Source of the DNA: Acidobacteriota bacterium
Lineage (GTDB): Bacteria; Acidobacteriota; Terriglobia; Acidiferrales; UBA7541
DNA: 64,000 bases
Reading direction: 5' to 3'
Assembly (NCBI GenBank): GCA_003225295.1
Contig: QHYZ01000055.1
Span: 1-64,000 of the forward strand
Shown here: positions 1-12,288 of the stretch, piece after piece
Layout: the number at the start of each line of letters is the position of its first letter
Position numbering within the stretch: position 1 is the first letter of the stretch
Position numbers and translations under genes: made by a program
Notes under the pieces: model-generated
The model's input: the letters and a program-made list of their open reading frames with translations, nothing else
Database searches by the model: none
Told to the model about the DNA's origin: nothing

Positions 1-1
1 C

Positions 2-3000
2 AACATCGTGAGCAAGAGTGGCACCAACGATTTTCACGGAAACGCCTTCGGGTACTTCCGTAACAAGGCCTTTCAGGCGCGTAATCCTTTTTCTGGTCAA
101 GTCGATCCGGTCACCGGCAATCTCAATCCGGTCAAACAAGCCTACACGCGCACGCAAAGCGGTCTCACGTTCGGCGGCCCACTCGAAAAAGACAAGACGT
201 TTGTTTTTTTCTCCTACGAGTATACGCAACGTGAAGAATCCGGTTTCACCAGCATTGGACGCGGGAATTTCGGGCTGAAGACAGGGGTCGTCTCGCCGTG
301 CATCCCCTTTCCTCTCAGCATGACGCCCGACCAACTGGCTTCTTACACGGCGCTTCTCAATACTGTCACCGGTGGCGGGGCTTCTTGCTCGAATCCTGTG
401 GCCATGCAGGTCGAGCAAGCTGCGGCACTCACAGCCGCTTCCTCAAACGTCGCAGTGAATGCCGATATGAACAAGAACATCGACGGGACCACGGTCCCCA
501 TTTCTTCCGCGCTGTTTGGAATTCCTACGGCCCTAGGTTCCAAGTTTTTTCCCATCCCAGTGCCTTGCCCTCTCGGACAACAGGTCAACAGCGTGGTGTG
601 TCTCCCGGTGGGGGCCGGCGTCCCCTTGGGTATCGGAACAGGTCTCGTTCCGCTGCCGGTTTCATCCGATGGTCATTTCCATTATGTGGCATTGAATTCT
701 ATTCGGGGAAATTACCCGGCCATGGAGAAGACCAGCTTATGGTCTGCCCGCCTCGACCATCACTGGGACAATCGCAACAACTCCTTCCTCCGCGTGGGCG
801 TTTCGCCCTCTCTCGTTACCGGCCTTCCGTCCACGTCGCAGAACCAGGTGTTCGGCCAGAATTCCGGGTCGCGCGCGGGCCTGAGCCAGACGCGCGACCT
901 CAACTTCACATTTCAGCATGACACTATTGTCAGCGATACCGCTTTCAACGAGTTCCGCATGCAAGTCGCCCGCCGCGGAATCCACTTTGGTTTTTCACAA
1001 CTTCCCGGTGGCGACCTGATCGCTGTCAATATCCCCGGGACCGGCTATTTCGGCCGGGAACCCTATTCTCCGGTCGACCGCATCGAGCGCCGCTTTGAAT
1101 TCACGGACAACGTGAGCCTCGTTCGCGGCAAACACACATTCAAAATGGGCGCTGATGTAAACCTCATTCAACTGCGCTCGAAAAAACAGCAAATCTTCCA
1201 GCTGGACTTTGGCGGTGATGTCAATTTTGGCGGCATCTCCATCGGCGCTGGTGTTCCCAACACGACCGGGCTGCAGGCCTACGGCCTGGGAATCCCGCAG
1301 TCTTACATCCAGGGAATCGGCAGTTCCAACAATCCTTTCGACAATGTCCCCATAGGCTTCTTCCTCCAGGATAATTGGCGGCTGAACCGGCACCTGACCG
1401 TCAATTACGGTGTGCGCTATGACGTGGAAATCAGCCCGCTATTCGCGGCCGGAACGGCCCTAAATGCCGCCGCGGAGCAGGCACTCGGCGTTGTGGAAGG
1501 CATTCCGCGCGATTACAACAATGTCGCCCCCCGGATAGGCTTGGCCTGGGATCCCGCCGGCAATGGCAAGACCGTTATCCGCGCCGGCTTCGGGATTTTC
1601 TACGATCATCCACTACTAGCTACTGCTTTCAACGCCGTGACTGCCGACGGTGGCCGCTCCGTACAACTGCTTTCTATCGGCGACAAAGCATCCGCTTGCG
1701 GCCTGCTGCCTCCGCCGGCCCCTCCCGTATGCGGCTCGGGGTTCGATTCGCCGGCGAATCTCAACGGCGGTTCTATTTTCCAGGGCACACTGAACGCCCT
1801 TCCGAACATGTTTTACCTGCCCAATCAGCAGCGCTTCGATCCTCTTGCTTCCAGTTCTCTTTTTGCCAATCAAAACTATTTGACCGCAGGATTCCCCCTT
1901 CCCATTCTGCCCTTCACGCTTCCTCTCGGGAAAAACTTTGTTTATGGCTATGCCGAGCAGGGGAATCTCACCATCGAGCGCGAAATCGCGGGCTCCTGGA
2001 AATTCAGCCTGGGTTACCAGCGGTCCCGCGGGTTGCACTTGAACCATGCGCAGGATGTGAATAGCACGGATCCCCGTCTGCTCGCCCAGAACATGTTCAA
2101 CGCGGTGGCCTCGGGGCTAAGCGCCAGCCAGCCGCTGGCCGTCCTCGTGCCCGGTGGCGCGCCGAACACCTGTGTCAATAACGGTTCCGGTAGTATCTTC
2201 CTGATTGCTCCGAGCGCTCTGGGCCAGGGCTTTGCGGCGCCGAACTGCAACCCGGCAGCGGCCGTCGGATTGGTGGGCACGGCGGCCTTCTTCAACTTCT
2301 TCCGCCCCTCTGGCCCTAATCCGTCATTCGCCGGTCTGGTTGCGCCGGGACAGCCTCTCGCCGTCGGGTACGCAACGCAAGTCGCTCTGGCGACTCTGGC
2401 TGGCTACCCCAAGGGCTTTGGCGTTCCTGTTCCTTTCAACAGCGTCGACGCGCAGCTCTCCAACGCCAACTCCTGGTACAACGCCTTGACCTTTAACCTC
2501 TCGAAGCGTTTCTCCCATGGCTTCGAGCTGCTTTCCAGCTACACCTGGTCCCATTCCATTGACGACGCCACCGACCTGCAATCCCCCCTGGAGCCTCAGG
2601 ACAGCCGCTTCCTCAATCTCGAGCGCTCTAATTCCGTGAACGACCAGCGCCACCGCTGGGTGAACAGTGCCGTCTTCCAATCGGCCGGTGCCAAGTCCGG
2701 AGATGGCTTCTTCAAGCATGTGGTCGCCGATTTCACTGTTTCCCCCATTATCGAGTACTCTTCCGGTAGGCCGTTCAACGTCATCACCGGTGAAAACACA
2801 CGTCTCGACTTCAGCACTTCGACGGGACGCCCCTCGGTTGGCGGAGCCACCTCTTCGCCCTTTATTCCCGGCGTGACCTTCGGTCCGCCCAGCCTGTGTC
2901 TCAACAGCGACGGCACAACATTTAAGGTGCCCCTCGTAGCTCCGCCCGCAGGCTGCAACGGAAATCTCGGCCGGAACGCCTTCACCTCACCGAACTTCTT

Positions 3001-6358: not shown

Positions 6359-8002
6359 CTAAGACGATTTCCCGGCCAGCCGGTAGATCTGGGCGTCCAG
6401 AAAAACGCGAAAGAGTTCGGCATCGATCTCTTCGTCGCGCGCGCAGAGTTTCAAGATGTCCAGCGCGCGGTTGGTGGGAACCGCGCGCTTGTAAGGACGG
6501 TCCGAAGCGGATAACGCGTCGAAAATATCGCAAATCGCCATCATCTTGGCCTGCACCGGGATCTGCCCGGAATTCAGCCCGAACGGGTATCCCTTGCCGT
6601 TGGGCTTTTCATGATGGGCGCGCGCAATCTCCGGGATGGCCCGGAATTCCGGTGTCCACGGAATCTGCGCCAGAAAATTGAAGCTGTGCACCACGTGCGA
6701 CTCGATCTGACGGCGCTCATCGGCATCCAGACTGCCGCGGGGGATTGAAAGAAACCGCACTTCCTCGGAGGAAAGGTAGGGACGCTCCGTCCCGCGCGGG
6801 TCGCGATAGGTTTTCTGCCCAATCTCGTTCAGCACTTCGAAGTCTGCGGAAGGCAGAAGCGTCGGCTCGTTGGCCTTGGCGATGAATTCGGCAAATCGAT
6901 CCACTTCGCCGTGCAACCGGCGCGATTCCTCGTCGAGCGTGCGCAAGCGCTCCGCGGCTTGCTTCCGGGACAGCGAAAGCAACGCTTCCACCTTCTGCTC
7001 CGCGATTCGCGCCTCAATGTCCCGCCGGATGTAGTCGAAGCGGTCCAGCACGCGCGCCAAGTGCTGCGGATAGAGTTTTCTTGCCTTCACCAGCACTTCT
7101 TCGCGTACTCCCACCTTACCGAAATCGTGCAGCAACGCGGCGTAGCGCAGTTCTTTCATCTGTTCGCGGGAAAACCGCAGATCCCCATAAGGGCCGCGCA
7201 GCACGCGGTCCACTGCTTCGGCCAAAGCCACAGTCATTTCGCAAACTCGCTGCGAATGACCGGACGTCGTCGGGTCGCGCTGTTCGATGGCCTTCGCCGC
7301 CGCACCCACAAATCCGTCGAACAGATTCTCAATGTCTCGATAGAGCCTTGAATTTTCGTAAGCCACCGCCGCCTGCGAAGCCAACGACAACCCCAGCCGC
7401 ACAGCGCGCTCCGGAAAGGGATGCACCCAGCGCCGCACTGCGCCAGAATCGGTCAGCCGCGCCTTGGTGTTGCGCTTGCAATTGATCAACTGCAACACGC
7501 CGAGGACTTCGCCCTTCCCGTTTCTCATCGGCAGCGTTATCAACGAGCGCGTGCGGTAGCCGGCCTGCTGATCGAACGCGGCATTGAAATGAAACGGCCG
7601 CGCTTTTGGTATGCGATACGCGTCGGAGAGCTCGATGACTTCTCCGTGCAGCGCGCAGTATCCCGCCATCGAATCTTCCGTCAGCGGAAGCGTGTGTTCG
7701 CTGAAAGGAAACTGTACGCTGTCGTTTTGCGTCAGCTTGAACCGCAGCAACGGAACAGGCAGTCCAGCCGTCACAGAAACCCCGTCCCTCTCCAGGAGAT
7801 ACAGGGAGCCGGCGTCTGCCGCGGTGATTTCCCTGGCCTTCTTAAGAATCAGATCGAGCAGCTGCCCTACATCGCGCGTCTCGGATAGGGCAATCCCGAC
7901 GCGGTTCAGCTCTTCAAGGTCACGGGTGGCCCTCGTCCGGCTGAGCGCCTTGTTTGGGGCTCTCGGGACGCGCTTAGGCGTCGATTTTTTGATTCCCGCC
8001 AT
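6359..8002 (-). CDS. GAF / HD-GYP domain protein, putative cyclic-di-GMP phosphodiesterase
   Basis: The chosen ATG gives MAGIKKSTPK; an in-frame ATG 81 nt upstream would add a low-complexity Arg-rich stretch and is less likely. After a basic N-terminus comes a GAF domain (about residues 30-195, with ADAGSLYLLERDG and ITLPMRNGKGEVLGVLQLI), then an HD-GYP domain with GHSQRVCEMTVALA, the HD pair in ALLHDFGKVG (about residue 290) and HHEKPNGKGYPFGL (about 460). HD-GYP enzymes hydrolyse cyclic-di-GMP. Two features differ from the textbook enzyme: Asn replaces Asp in the HHExxDG motif, and HD and HHE are about 170 residues apart because of a charged coiled-coil insert. GAF probably senses a small ligand. 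The gene is divergent from the phosphatase operon. Confidence 0.85.
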   Translation of the reverse strand: MAGIKKSTPKRVPRAPNKALSRTRATRDLEELNRVGIALSETRDVGQLLDLILKKAREITAADAGSLYLLERDGVSVTAGLPVPLLRFKLTQNDSVQFPFSEHTLPLTEDSMAGYCALHGEVIELSDAYRIPKARPFHFNAAFDQQAGYRTRSLITLPMRNGKGEVLGVLQLINCKRNTKARLTDSGAVRRWVHPFPERAVRLGLSLASQAAVAYENSRLYRDIENLFDGFVGAAAKAIEQRDPTTSGHSQRVCEMTVALAEAVDRVLRGPYGDLRFSREQMKELRYAALLHDFGKVGVREEVLVKARKLYPQHLARVLDRFDYIRRDIEARIAEQKVEALLSLSRKQAAERLRTLDEESRRLHGEVDRFAEFIAKANEPTLLPSADFEVLNEIGQKTYRDPRGTERPYLSSEEVRFLSIPRGSLDADERRQIESHVVHSFNFLAQIPWTPEFRAIPEIARAHHEKPNGKGYPFGLNSGQIPVQAKMMAICDIFDALSASDRPYKRAVPTNRALDILKLCARDEEIDAELFRVFLDAQIYRLAGKSS

Positions 8003-8278
8003 CGAAAAAGGGGCGTTGCGCCGCAGCCGCAAGGGCCGGGCAGATCGAAAGTATAACGAAAGCTCGTACGGCGGGCACGCCAAGTGTGCCCCAACACGGC
8101 GATCGCCCCTAAACCAACGAGGAGCGGTCGCATCTCCCCCCGCTTGTGGCGAAAGAGCGAGTAATCAGTAGGGTTCAAAGCCTTTCGCCGGCCTTGGGGC
8201 TCTGTTAGCGTGAGAATAGAGTCGCCGGGTACAAGTGTGGGCCGGGGGTGTAAGCTCAGGGCGGCAACAGGAGTTTGT

Positions 8279-9118
8279 GTGCGAATCACGACTGGCGGCG
8301 TGACCGATATGGGTCGCGTGCGTACAAACAACGAAGATTGCTACAAAATTGTTGAGCCGTTGCAGCTCTTCGTGCTCTCCGACGGTATGGGGGGCGAAGC
8401 CCATGGTGAAATCGCCAGCGCCATGGCGGTTGAAACCGTCGTGAAACACTGCCTCGACGTCGAGACCAATCCGGCCGCCTGGGTCATCGGCAGGGTTGAC
8501 CCGAATTGGAGTGCTCGAACAAAACGCCTTTCTACCGCCGTCCATCTTGCCAACAAGAACATTTTCAAGTCCGCCGAAGAAAACCCGGATCGGCACGGCA
8601 TGGGCGCCACTCTGACGGCAGTATGGATTGATGACGCGAAACTCAGCATCGCCCACGTTGGCGACAGCCGCGCCTACCTGCTCCGCAGCGGCAGCTTGCT
8701 TCAGCTCACGCGGGATCATTCTCTCGTGGCCGAACAGGTGCGGCGCGGCATTTTGACTGCCGCCGAGGCCGAAGAAAGTGAAATGCAGAGCGTTTTGCTG
8801 CGCGCGCTTGGCGCACAAGCGGAAATCGAAGTGGACGCTGAGGAGCACACGCTTTTCCCACGGGATATTCTGCTGCTCTGCTCCGATGGATTGACACGCG
8901 TGGTCACGGAGCCCGAAATCGCGGGAACGCTGCAGGCGGAGACCGACGCCGCCCGGGCCTCGGAAAAGCTCGTTGCACTCGCCAATGAGCGCGGCGGCCC
9001 GGACAACATCTCGGTAGTGACCGTGCGGCTCGAAAAGGAATCCAAGGGGTGGTTTTCGTGGTTGCGTCGTGGGTCAGGCAAGAATCTAGGTTCAAATGGT
9101 AGCGTTGGAGGAAAATGA
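8279..9118 (+). CDS. PP2C-family serine/threonine protein phosphatase
   Basis: About 279 residues. GTG at 8279 is preferred because a GGAG sits 6 nt upstream; an ATG at 8210 in the same frame lacks a comparable site. All PP2C metal-binding motifs are present: TDMGRVRTNNED, SDGMGGEAHGE, GDSRAYLLR, CSDGLT and GGPDNIS. These enzymes are Mn/Mg-dependent cytoplasmic phosphatases that reverse Hanks-type kinase phosphorylation. The stop codon overlaps the ribosome binding region of the FHA gene, and the cyclase follows 13 nt after that, so the three form one operon. No Ser/Thr kinase is encoded in the window. An 80-residue C-terminal tail is basic and Gly-rich. Confidence 0.9.
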   Translation: MRITTGGVTDMGRVRTNNEDCYKIVEPLQLFVLSDGMGGEAHGEIASAMAVETVVKHCLDVETNPAAWVIGRVDPNWSARTKRLSTAVHLANKNIFKSAEENPDRHGMGATLTAVWIDDAKLSIAHVGDSRAYLLRSGSLLQLTRDHSLVAEQVRRGILTAAEAEESEMQSVLLRALGAQAEIEVDAEEHTLFPRDILLLCSDGLTRVVTEPEIAGTLQAETDAARASEKLVALANERGGPDNISVVTVRLEKESKGWFSWLRRGSGKNLGSNGSVGGK

Positions 9119-9119
9119 G

Positions 9120-9845
9120 ATGGCGAAGCTCAGCCTCATGTTTGACAACAAAATCATGAAAGAGGTTCCCGTGGGCAGCCGGCCCGTAACCATCGGCCGC
9201 TCCCCGGACAACGATTTGCCCGTCGATAACCTCGCCGTGTCCAACTATCACGCGAAAATCTATTTTGAAGCCGGCCGCATGGTCATTGAAGACCTCGACA
9301 GCCTCAACGGCACTTTTGTGAACGATCTCCGTGTCGAGCGCGCCACCCTGCACGACGGCGACAACATCCATATCGGCAAACACAAGATCAAGGTCGATAC
9401 CAGCGGCGATGCCCCGGTGCCCTGGGACTCCGGCCGCAAAGCCGCCGCGCCGCGCATCGACGAAACCATGGTGCTGGACACCAAGGAACGCCGTCAGATG
9501 CTCCAGCAAGCTGCCGCCATGGGCGAATCCATGCAGTTTGCCTCGTCTCGCATGAAAGTCCCGACCCTAGTCACTCTCAATGGCCGGACCGATCAGAAGG
9601 AGTATGTTCTGACCAACAAACTCACGGTCATTGGAAAATCCGCGATGGCCACCGTTCGCCTCAAGGGCTGGTTCAAGCCTCAGATGGCCGCGCAGATCAA
9701 TCAGCGCGATGACGGCTACTATCTCGGTCCCGGCGACAAGGTGCCCAAAATCAACGGCGCTCCCATCTCCGGCCAAGTGCGCCTCAACGACGGCGATCTC
9801 GTCGAAGTCTGCGGCGTCCGCCTGAGCTTCATCTTCCGCGAGTAG
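9120..9845 (+). CDS. Forkhead-associated (FHA) domain protein, two FHA-like modules
   Basis: 241 residues, starting at the ATG behind GGAGG that overlaps the end of the phosphatase gene. The N-terminal FHA domain (about residues 1-95) has VTIGRSPDND, SNYH and SLNGTFVND, the residues that bind phosphothreonine. The C-terminal half (about 150-241) has the same strand pattern: VTLNGRTDQKEYVL, LTVIGKSAMATVRL, VPKINGAPISGQVRLNDGD. It lacks the GR-S-H signature and is best called a degenerate FHA. A linker around 100-148 contains Thr and Ser residues that could be kinase targets. The position between a PP2C phosphatase and a cyclase suggests a phosphorylation-dependent adaptor. Confidence 0.88.
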   Translation: MAKLSLMFDNKIMKEVPVGSRPVTIGRSPDNDLPVDNLAVSNYHAKIYFEAGRMVIEDLDSLNGTFVNDLRVERATLHDGDNIHIGKHKIKVDTSGDAPVPWDSGRKAAAPRIDETMVLDTKERRQMLQQAAAMGESMQFASSRMKVPTLVTLNGRTDQKEYVLTNKLTVIGKSAMATVRLKGWFKPQMAAQINQRDDGYYLGPGDKVPKINGAPISGQVRLNDGDLVEVCGVRLSFIFRE

Positions 9846-9858
9846 CGCCAGACAAGCG

Positions 9859-12288
9859 ATGGCAGCTCCGTCAGAAGGATTCTGGCAGCGGCGGGGCGCT
9901 CTTAGCCTCTACGAATTGCTTCTAACATGGTGGCGTCACCGCGTCTCGTTTGTCATCAGTGTGGTCATCACCCTTCTTGCGCTGGCGCTGTACTACTTTA
10001 CGTTCGTCGGAGAACGCACTACTCCCATTTTCAATTTTATCCAGCGCCTGGAGTACGACTCGCTGGATACGCGCTTCCGCTATCGCCCGCGCCGCGCCAT
10101 GCCCATCGATCCGCGAATCGTTATCGTGGACATCGATCAGCACTCGCAGGAAGTGCTGGGAAAGTGGCCTTTTTCCAGAACCCATTTTGCAAGGATGCTC
10201 GACGTGCTTCGTGAAGATGGCGCGAAGGTGGTCGCCTTTGACGTGACCTTCAGCAAACCGGACCAGAGCGCCGCTCCGATCCGCGCGTTGTGGGCAGAGA
10301 TGGAGGCCCACCGAAAATCCGGAGAAACCATCGATCCCCTATTCTCAGCGGAAGTTCAAAAGCTGGCCACCCAGTACGACGCGGACAGGCAGTTCGCCAA
10401 CGCCATTCAACGTTTTGGCGCGGTTGTGCTTGGAAATTTCTTTCTGCACACCGAAGCAGACCTCCGCGGCCTGGATGACAAAACGCTCGACACCTACGCA
10501 AATCAAATCGCCTTCTATTCTTTTCCGAGCGTGCGTCCGCTCCGCCCAGAAACCGGCAAGCAGGATCGCATCAGCCTCATGGAGAAATTTCAACCGGACA
10601 ACCTCTTACCCAGGGGCACGGAAGCAAACCTGGAAATCCTTACCAGCGCGCTCAGCGAGGAAGCCTCCTCGACGGGGTTCTTTAACGTGTATCCCGACGT
10701 GGACGGGGTTGTCCGCCAGGCCAACCTCATCGTTCCTTATGGGCGCTCCAAGGACTTCGGTGATTGGGACATTTACGCCTCACTCGACGTGCAGACGGTG
10801 CGATCCTATTTCCGCCTGCCTAATGAACAGGTTGTTTTGGAATACGGACCGGTGGGGGTGTACCGCATTCTCTTCGACCAAGCGGCGCAGGTTCGCACGG
10901 ACGATCTCGGACGCGTGGTCATCAACTTTCATGGACCAGGTTACACATACCCTCACTATTCACTCGCTGACGTCGTGGAAAAGAAAATCTCTCCCCATGC
11001 GTTTGGCGGCACTATCGTCCTGGTCGGCGCCACCGCAACGGGCATTGGCGATCTGCGAACGACGCCATACGGAGGTCTCGACTACCCCGGTGTGGAAATC
11101 CATGCGAACGTGATCGATTGCATTCTGCACCAGTCGTTTCTTTATCGCGGAGCCAAGCAAACGCTGGCCGACGTTCTGCTCATTTTTTTCTTCGGTATCC
11201 CCCTGGGAATCTGGATGGCCCTGGTTACGCCACGCTGGATGTGGTTCGGCGCGTTCCTGATCGTGCCTTTGGTGGCGCTCGACTATTTTGCATTTCTGCA
11301 CGGCTGGTGGCTCAACTTCGGCGTGCCGGCGCTTACGCTGAGTTCCAACGTGCTTCTCGTCTCCCTATATCGGGCGCTGTTCGAAGAAAAAGAAAAACGC
11401 CGCGTGCGCTCCGCGTTTGGTCAGTATCTCAGTCCTGAAGTCATCCGCCGCCTGCTCGTCAATCCGCGTCTTGTCGAACCAAAGAAAACCGACATTACCG
11501 TCATGTTCAGCGATATTCGAGGTTTCACCACCATTTCCGAAAAATTGGACGCTCAGGATCTGGCGAATTTCCTGAACCAGTATCTTTCGGACATGACTCG
11601 TCTGGTTTTCGAACATCACGGCACTCTTGACAAATACATTGGCGACGCGGTGATGGCCTTCTGGGGTGCACCCTTCGAAGAACCCGGCCACGCGGCCAGA
11701 GCCTGCAATACAGCACTGAAAATGATGGAGCGAGTCCGCGAGATGCAAAAGAAATGGGAGTCCGAAGGCAAGCCGCATCTCGACATCGGCATCGGCCTGA
11801 ACACCGGCGTGGCCAGCGTCGGCAACATGGGCTCCGTGCTGCGCTACGGCTACACGGCCCTGGGCGACACCGTGAATCTCTCCTCACGCCTGGAAGGGCT
11901 GAATAAAGACTACGGCACGCACATCCTGGTCAACGAAACCACCTATTCCGCCGCCAAGGACGACGGTTTCGTCTTCCGCGAACTCGATCTCATCCGCGTG
12001 AAAGGCAAGCTCCAGCCGGTGGCCATCTACGAGCTTATTGGTGGCGCGGCTGAAAACTCCATTTACGGCACCCCGGACGAAGTGCGCAGCCGCCTGGATC
12101 TGTTCGAACAGGCCCATGAGCTCTACCGCAAACGCCGCTGGGGAGACGCCCAGAAATCTTTCCAAACCACTCTCGACCGGTGGCCCGAAGACGGCCCGTC
12201 CCGCGCCTATTGGAAGCGCTGCCAGGAATACTTATTCGATGAGCCTCCCTCGGGCTGGGACGGCGTCTTCACCATGACCCACAAATAA
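9859..12288 (+). CDS. CHASE2 sensor adenylate/guanylate cyclase
   Basis: 809 residues. An N-terminal membrane helix (about 30-52) precedes an extracytoplasmic CHASE2 domain (about 70-415; DPRIVIVDIDQHSQEVLGKW is diagnostic). Three helices follow at about 435-510, then a cytoplasmic class III cyclase domain (about 545-725). The metal-binding Asp residues are in FSDIRGFTTI and KYIGDAVMAFWGAP; the purine-contacting region reads YTALGDTVNLSSRLEG. The Lys/Asp pattern favours ATP as substrate, but this is inferred. The last 80 residues are TPR-like (LDLFEQAHELYRKRRWGDAQ). It is the third gene of the phosphatase-FHA operon, so cAMP output may depend on protein phosphorylation. Confidence 0.92.
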   Translation: MAAPSEGFWQRRGALSLYELLLTWWRHRVSFVISVVITLLALALYYFTFVGERTTPIFNFIQRLEYDSLDTRFRYRPRRAMPIDPRIVIVDIDQHSQEVLGKWPFSRTHFARMLDVLREDGAKVVAFDVTFSKPDQSAAPIRALWAEMEAHRKSGETIDPLFSAEVQKLATQYDADRQFANAIQRFGAVVLGNFFLHTEADLRGLDDKTLDTYANQIAFYSFPSVRPLRPETGKQDRISLMEKFQPDNLLPRGTEANLEILTSALSEEASSTGFFNVYPDVDGVVRQANLIVPYGRSKDFGDWDIYASLDVQTVRSYFRLPNEQVVLEYGPVGVYRILFDQAAQVRTDDLGRVVINFHGPGYTYPHYSLADVVEKKISPHAFGGTIVLVGATATGIGDLRTTPYGGLDYPGVEIHANVIDCILHQSFLYRGAKQTLADVLLIFFFGIPLGIWMALVTPRWMWFGAFLIVPLVALDYFAFLHGWWLNFGVPALTLSSNVLLVSLYRALFEEKEKRRVRSAFGQYLSPEVIRRLLVNPRLVEPKKTDITVMFSDIRGFTTISEKLDAQDLANFLNQYLSDMTRLVFEHHGTLDKYIGDAVMAFWGAPFEEPGHAARACNTALKMMERVREMQKKWESEGKPHLDIGIGLNTGVASVGNMGSVLRYGYTALGDTVNLSSRLEGLNKDYGTHILVNETTYSAAKDDGFVFRELDLIRVKGKLQPVAIYELIGGAAENSIYGTPDEVRSRLDLFEQAHELYRKRRWGDAQKSFQTTLDRWPEDGPSRAYWKRCQEYLFDEPPSGWDGVFTMTHK

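Follow-up and report, generated by a model that had tools for sequence, protein, structure and literature searches.

The 64,000 nucleotides analysed here (hereafter the window) are positions 1 to 64,000, forward strand, of contig QHYZ01000055.1 (C160) in Acidobacteriota bacterium assembly GCA_003225295.1, and form the start of one of the 385 contigs of an 8.13 Mb genome (G000). Three consecutive genes on the plus strand, identified from the DNA and Pfam matches, encode a PP2C-family phosphatase (8279-9118), an FHA-domain protein (9120-9845) and a membrane-bound nucleotide cyclase with a CHASE2 sensor domain (9859-12288). The features of this trio are as follows:

8279..9118, plus strand: PP2C-family Ser/Thr phosphatase, 279 aa (Pfam PP2C_2 7.6e-13, PP2C 7.8e-13)
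9120..9845, plus strand: FHA protein, putative relay, 241 aa (Pfam FHA 5.3e-23)
9120..9407, plus strand: FHA domain 1 with a canonical phosphothreonine (pThr) pocket, residues 1-96 (G26 R27 S41 H44 S61 N63 G64 T65 N68)
9465..9467, plus strand: codon of Thr116 in the linker, motif [DE]xT[MV][VI][LI], here DETMVLDTK
9552..9842, plus strand: second FHA fold, pThr pocket absent, about residues 145-241 (from alignment, model and matches to the KIF13A and KIF1A FHA domains)
9859..12288, plus strand: CHASE2 class III nucleotide cyclase, predicted adenylyl type, 809 aa (Pfam CHASE2 1.8e-57, Guanylate_cyc 7.6e-28)

The phosphatase gene opens with GTG 8279, preceded by AGGAG, and ends in a TGA codon at 9116-9118. 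For the FHA gene, ATG 9120 is the most likely start, being the one used in relatives; an alternative start at 9096 (249 aa, overlapping the PP2C gene) is less likely. The gap between these two genes is 1 nt and that between the FHA stop and the cyclase ATG is 13 nt, which agrees with the initial annotation of this DNA, where the three were said to overlap or nearly touch. Its statement that no kinase is encoded was borne out as well: no Hanks-type Ser/Thr kinase was found in the window, either with a kinase hidden Markov model on its open reading frames or by scanning frames of at least 150 aa for the HRD motif, and none of the 42 kinase matches in the genome lies on this contig. Between 8050 and 12700, no sigma-70-type promoter was found (shuffled mean 1.5) and terminator-like sites numbered 8 (4.9 after shuffling). 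Co-transcription of the trio therefore rests on spacing and strand. Plasmid carriage of the window was considered and set aside, megablast having returned no near match.

The phosphatase carries the motifs NNED, DGMGG, GDSR, DGL and DN, whose residues we take to be its metal ligands; they are invariant in the 35 genomes of the genus that have the locus, and the C, S and P positions beside them vary. The FHA protein is similarly constrained in its first domain, where the residues listed above, presumably the pThr contacts, are intact in the same 35 genomes. G26, R27, S41, H44 and N68 are present in all 93 aligned FHA homologues; the search pattern itself had a share in selecting positions 57-65. 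An AlphaFold2 model of the protein (mean predicted local distance difference test, pLDDT, 85.5; predicted template modelling score 0.43) has two FHA folds, at 3-94 and 147-240; between them it shows a stretch of low confidence (about 97-119) and a helix (121-134). The pLDDT falls below 50 at 111-119, spanning Thr116, and the model suggests that the stretch of about 97-119 is probably disordered. The best fold matches of domain 1 by structure alignment include GarA, OdhI, EmbR and FhaA; domain 1 takes up the list of structure matches, so that little can be learned about domain 2 from these alignments. The KIF13A FHA domain is matched at model residues 145-240 (Z 15.0, 94 residues, root mean square deviation 1.9), and the matches to KIF13A and KIF1A FHA domains taken together lie at 145-241. 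In the sequence alignment, domain 2 has GK in place of GR and no S/H pair. The protein had been called a double FHA; two FHA folds are indeed predicted, the pThr pocket being present in the first only. The linker between them is poorly conserved apart from the Thr116 motif. Thr116 is found in 35 of 35 genus genomes, in 85 of the 93 homologues, and in 71 of the 79 homologues without the motif that served as search pattern; a motif related to that of the linker occurs in 74 of the 93 linkers, as compared to 0.85 expected by shuffling.

In the cyclase, Pfam places CHASE2 at 56-445 and Guanylate_cyc at 542-722, and hydropathy indicates transmembrane-like stretches at 26-52, 434-459 and 460-483. 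A CHASE2 domain between transmembrane segments, combined with a class III catalytic domain, is the architecture of a CHASE2-cyclase. The motifs FSDIRGF at 550, LDKYIGD at 590 and YTALGDTVNLSSR at 665 hold what we take to be the class III catalytic residues: the metal Asp pair, the substrate Lys/Thr and the transition-state Asn/Arg are all present. K592 and T666 are presumably the adenylyl (class IIIb) substrate pair, and the protein is predicted from its sequence to be a CHASE2 adenylyl cyclase. CRP-like receptors (PF00027) were considered as a sign that its product, cyclic AMP (cAMP), is used; they occur in 58 of 61 relatives, cyclase-less ones included, and are uninformative.

The FHA protein is encoded in 35 of the 36 genomes of the genus, the remaining one (G015) being 63% complete, and PP2C lies beside it in all 35; this pair is the constant core of the locus. 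The cyclase follows FHA directly in 21 of the 35, counting G025, where it is cut by a contig end, and G030, where its frame is broken; many of these loci were covered with 1500 bases of flank, the cyclase being seen there as its N-terminal part. The gap between FHA and cyclase is 10-16 nt in 17 of the 21 copies. The G030 cyclase (L017) has an internal stop and shifted pieces, through decay or an assembly error. In 11 of the 14 cyclase-less genomes CHASE2 is not matched at all; the other three have a match, on a different contig. A tree of PP2C and FHA implies about 8 changes in the state of the cyclase (7-9 over bootstraps), of which at least 5 fall on supported branches. Stretches matching the 3' end of the cyclase persist in four genomes (G026, G027, G013 and G028) and the sister genus has the cyclase, so the changes are read as losses. 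Where the cyclase is gone, PP2C and FHA persist with all pThr residues intact, and the pair must therefore serve other clients too.

Relatives of the genus retain a kinase at this place. The sister genus (G036, locus L035) has, in order, CHASE2-Ser/Thr-kinase, PP2C, FHA and CHASE2-cyclase. Four other families of the class are represented by five genomes (G043, G044, G047, G051 and G055) with the CHASE2-kinase, PP2C and FHA and no adjacent cyclase, and three of these genomes (G043, G047 and G055) have CHASE2-cyclases elsewhere; G041 has PP2C and FHA alone. Among ten further FHA loci from a 297-genome sample of the phylum, PP2C is adjacent in seven and a CHASE2-kinase in two (G131 and G179). No operon CHASE2-kinase was found in the 36 genus genomes, some of which are incomplete. 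When the G036 kinase plus its linker was used as a query, scores were 1.7e-150 or lower in the six CHASE2-kinase genomes versus 1.3e-78 at best in genus genomes, where, among the matches listed, the match began at query residue 87 or later. Relocation of the kinase within the genus genomes was rejected on these grounds; scores and match starts point to loss. With a kinase in the relatives and none in the genus, the absence of a writer from the window is read as a loss within the genus, whose kinase-less state is most likely derived. Thus the statement of the initial annotation that the writer must be elsewhere is right in that the window has none and incomplete in that the operon's own CHASE2-kinase exists in relatives. 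A second CHASE2 protein of the window genome (L147, contig C129) was examined as a possible hidden CHASE2-kinase and is a CHASE2 histidine kinase. One genus genome (G003, contig C24) carries a second, paralogous kinase-PP2C-FHA set (L042).

With the G036 kinase as query, 33 of the 36 genus genomes give as best match a kinase domain that is 44-49% identical; the open frame around it measures 757-861 aa in 30 of them and 543-662 aa in the other three. Judged by score, length and place, these 33 kinases are likely one orthologous group; PEGA repeats were checked in three kinases (G000, G014 and G036). In 18 of the 33 genomes, and in G036, this PEGA kinase and FHA share a strand and the kinase is 12.0-22.6 kb upstream. 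The linkage is not universal: G033 and G030 have the kinase on a separate contig, even though their FHA contigs extend far enough upstream to have included it. The window genome has it on contig C360. Overlapping parts of a single gene are found at the low end of C360 and at the start of the window (1-1400), arranged as in G014; C160 and C360 probably adjoin, and the kinase would then lie about 15.7 kb upstream of FHA. All seven PEGA orthologues examined have at least one Thr-hydrophobic motif behind the kinase domain. The PEGA kinase is the best candidate for the writer in the genus, as a lead only.

Beyond the phylum we compared 80 named FHA loci, the best 80 of 561 relatives by two peptide patterns (a non-random set, two of them from the genus itself). 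PP2C adjoins FHA in 78, and 60 have a same-strand kinase. A CHASE2-cyclase lies directly downstream of FHA in 19, plus two cut by contig ends; 18 of the 19 carry a Betaproteobacterial label, at that or a lower rank, and the remaining one is labelled simply 'Proteobacteria'. The full four-gene order is found in 14 of the 80, nearly all Betaproteobacterial (the kinase frame of L104 is short). Two Burkholderiales loci (L072 and L100) have PP2C, FHA and cyclase, no kinase, and opposite-strand genes upstream, the same reduced form as in the window. FHA and cyclase domains are also found fused in single proteins. One fusion, from a deltaproteobacterial metagenome-assembled genome (MAG; L116:6860-7837), has the linker motif DETVAF, and its gene belongs to a single run that also encodes PP2C, a Hanks kinase and an FHA protein; two others (L224 and L225), in 2 of the 297 Acidobacteriota genomes, have a linker Thr (AATLMT and EKTQVAV).

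Given the gene content, gene order, repeated gain and loss and residue conservation observed here, the reading that we favour, with a probability of roughly 0.5, is that the trio is the kinase-less descendant of a unit made up of CHASE2-kinase, PP2C, FHA relay and CHASE2-adenylyl cyclase, and that the relay tunes the cyclase among other clients. The biochemical steps, every one of which we infer, would be as follows: the membrane kinase would autophosphorylate Thr motifs beside its kinase domain; FHA domain 1 would dock on the kinase pThr, and the FHA protein would be phosphorylated at linker Thr116; pThr116 would then compete for the domain 1 pocket, either in cis or across monomers, and so change the binding partners of the protein; PP2C would reset the relay. 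The co-encoded cyclase would be one client, pThr state and CHASE2 signal jointly setting cAMP, and further clients would account for the survival of PP2C and FHA in its absence. In this genus the operon kinase would have been lost and another Hanks kinase would write, the PEGA kinase being the best candidate. PP2C and FHA, with the pocket and Thr116, are kept in 35 of 35 genomes though the CHASE2-kinase is found in none.

Writer, eraser and reader are co-encoded in the kinase-PP2C-FHA cassettes PpkA-PppA-Fha, of type VI secretion, and PknA/B-PstP-FhaA/B. The relatives of the window are alike in this respect: a kinase adjoining PP2C and FHA is present in G036 and in other families. The window differs from such cassettes in having no writer, in having a CHASE2 cyclase, and in the neighbours examined (GAF-HD, RmuC and an RND pump), which include no secretion or cell-wall set. 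The autophosphorylated tail of PknG is reported to recruit the FHA domain of GarA/OdhI, which is phosphorylated on a Thr in a flanking segment (PMC8546545). The window protein resembles GarA/OdhI in the fold of domain 1 and in a conserved Thr within a low-confidence segment next to the FHA domain, and the CHASE2-kinases of relatives resemble PknG in carrying Thr motifs outside the catalytic domain. However, GarA/OdhI have an N-terminal ETTS motif, whereas the window protein begins at the FHA domain and has its Thr C-terminally, between two FHA folds; it also has an additional, pocket-less FHA fold, and its neighbours are PP2C and the cyclase instead of metabolic enzymes. Since the ETTS motif is absent, the protein may work like GarA and is not classed as GarA/OdhI. 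In Bdellovibrio, the FHA domain of DgcB is reported to bind the protein's own phosphorylated tail and so to gate a diguanylate cyclase (PMC6733907). Reading of pThr by an FHA domain is there, too, tied to a nucleotide cyclase, but DgcB is one polypeptide with a GGDEF domain, whereas the FHA protein and the class III cyclase of the window are separate. The CHASE2 adenylyl cyclases CyaD1, CyaD2 and CyaK of Sinorhizobium meliloti make cAMP (PMC13001267) and share the CHASE2 sensor on a class III cyclase; the available part of that paper mentions no FHA or PP2C partner. Each component is known; neither the four-gene combination nor its repeated origin was described in the titles and abstract openings found by full-text searches of open-licence PMC papers.

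Several observations weigh against the relay. The cyclase is missing from its site in 14 of 35 genus genomes, with the roughly 8 changes on the tree, and is thus dispensable; it stands beside FHA in 0 of the 10 phylum-wide loci outside the genus. Outside the catalytic core, no Thr motif common to both clades of operon cyclases (described below) was found in the aligned cyclases, an alignment that also left out L200, L100 and L085, so the sequence gives no hint as to how the relay would touch the cyclase. Position 116 lacks Thr in 8 of the 93 FHA homologues. One finding that speaks for the relay needs qualifying: Thr motifs similar to that of the FHA linker (ETVILG, GGTLIL and the like) stand just before the kinase domain in 33 of 40 CHASE2-kinases, counted without the duplicates L137-L140 and kinases with fewer than 60 residues before the domain, where shuffling predicts 0.03 and 0.56 for the two forms of the motif. 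Both forms were chosen after viewing the sequences, however, and a first, stricter motif matched 22 of 44 CHASE2-kinases, four duplicates included. As for the PEGA kinase, the loose Thr motif behind the kinase domain also occurs in 7 of 25 other kinases of the window genome, and a stricter motif is found in 3 of those 25 and not in the PEGA kinase of that genome. Its distribution says little: 33 of the 36 genus genomes have the likely orthologue, as does G036, which has the CHASE2-kinase as well.

The absence of the cyclase from so many genus genomes that keep PP2C and FHA, and from the neighbourhood of FHA in other families of the class and phylum, would also be expected if the pair served an unrelated pThr pathway and the CHASE2-cyclase were a passenger with only the promoter in common. 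We regard this as rather unlikely, though deserving of serious consideration. The same kind of cyclase occupies the same place and strand after FHA in a second phylum, probably by a separate origin; the kinase-less form recurs in the Burkholderiales loci; and FHA-cyclase fusions occur.

The separate origin is drawn from a tree of 55 CHASE2-cyclases and relatives, from which duplicates (L175-L188, L055, L056 and L156) and L199, where no cyclase domain was found, were left out. The Acidobacterial operon cyclases form one clade (support 100), which groups with nine non-operon CHASE2-cyclases of the same class (95), and the Betaproteobacterial operon cyclases form another (98). Forcing both groups together costs 44 log-likelihood units, and a single clade is rejected by the approximately unbiased (AU) test (p 0.0025), which was run without duplicates and six long or aberrant cyclases (L198, L200, L162, L163, L164 and L201). 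Most simply read, the cyclase was added at the same place on two separate occasions, and it probably joined the operon once in Acidobacteriota and once in Betaproteobacteria. The other history, an old four-gene order inherited by both phyla with the cyclase exiting many times, is compatible with the relay and has in its favour that all four genes occur in the same order in two phyla and that the AU rejection, by itself, leaves room for later exits. It would need exits in the Nitrospirota, Elusimicrobiota, Syntrophaceae and Acidobacteriota loci that have kinase, PP2C and FHA without a cyclase, and we consider it unlikely. More broadly, and more tentatively than the relay itself, there may be a widespread, undescribed membrane unit in which a CHASE2-kinase and a CHASE2-adenylyl cyclase, sharing a sensor type, are coupled by a GarA-like FHA relay and PP2C, so that Hanks signalling feeds directly into cAMP; the cyclase would have been recruited separately in the two phyla and the kinase later dropped in both.

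The initial annotation proposed that the cyclase itself is Thr-phosphorylated, that the FHA protein binds the phosphorylated cyclase and that PP2C erases the mark. The genes are adjacent, the pThr pocket is invariant, and a Thr immediately ahead of the catalytic domain (T544, KKTDIT) is shared by 6 of the 7 operon cyclases from Acidobacteriota, no other aligned cyclase having Thr at that column. An operon-specific pThr site in the cyclase was nevertheless rejected, none being common to both clades; FHA and PP2C persist where the cyclase is gone; and the conserved candidate phosphosites are in the FHA linker and the kinases. The likeness to PknG and DgcB, together with the FHA-cyclase fusions, favours a relay with a Thr116 switch over direct phosphorylation of the cyclase, which we judge improbable. 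Of that proposal, a pThr reader and eraser beside a membrane cyclase holds up, and the link recurs in 21 of 35 genus genomes, in G036 and in 19 of 80 named loci. That linkage, on which the proposal had been made to depend, is only partly conserved, given the 14 cyclase-less genus genomes and the absence of a cyclase from all ten phylum-wide loci, and the view that the FHA/PP2C switch exists to control the cyclase is not supported, given the retention of the pair after cyclase loss and the lack of a shared cyclase Thr motif. Mere chance neighbourhood is very improbable: gene order in MAGs is fluid and each genome has many cyclases and kinases (by a scoring of at most three candidates per genome), but the gap of 10-16 nt recurs in most genus copies and the linkage spans two phyla and 41 genomes or loci (21 genus genomes, G036 and the 19 named loci).

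A further gene upstream is a possible fifth member of the operon:

6359..8083, minus strand: divergent GAF-HD protein (HD-GYP-like), possible associate (Pfam GAF, HD, HD_5)

Its sequence carries the HD-GYP-like motif HHE..NGKGYP. The gene is present in 9 of 21 cyclase-bearing genus genomes and in none of the 14 cyclase-less ones (Fisher p 0.005), one of the nine (G005) having been scored from a contig-end fragment in one survey and being absent from a second list; the association is not significant in a phylogenetic pair test, which had only four supported pairs. In G029 the GAF-HD gene is reduced to a remnant and the cyclase is lost too. In G051 a 701-aa protein (L037:11511-13613), encoded 2.5 kb downstream of FHA, fuses a class III cyclase without CHASE2 to TPR-like repeats and HD_5; in the window, separate cyclase and HD genes flank PP2C and FHA.

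Ser/Thr phosphorylation and cAMP signalling in bacteria have mostly been studied apart. If the favoured reading is true, a conserved operon encoding an adenylyl cyclase together with a kinase, a phosphatase and an FHA relay would form a tangible link between the two, testable in culturable Betaproteobacteria (relatives of Rhodoferax, Polaromonas and Hydrogenophaga) and with one predicted phosphosite. The Acidobacterial genus would then show the unit being dismantled, the kinase first and then, repeatedly, the cyclase, while the phosphatase and the reader stay.

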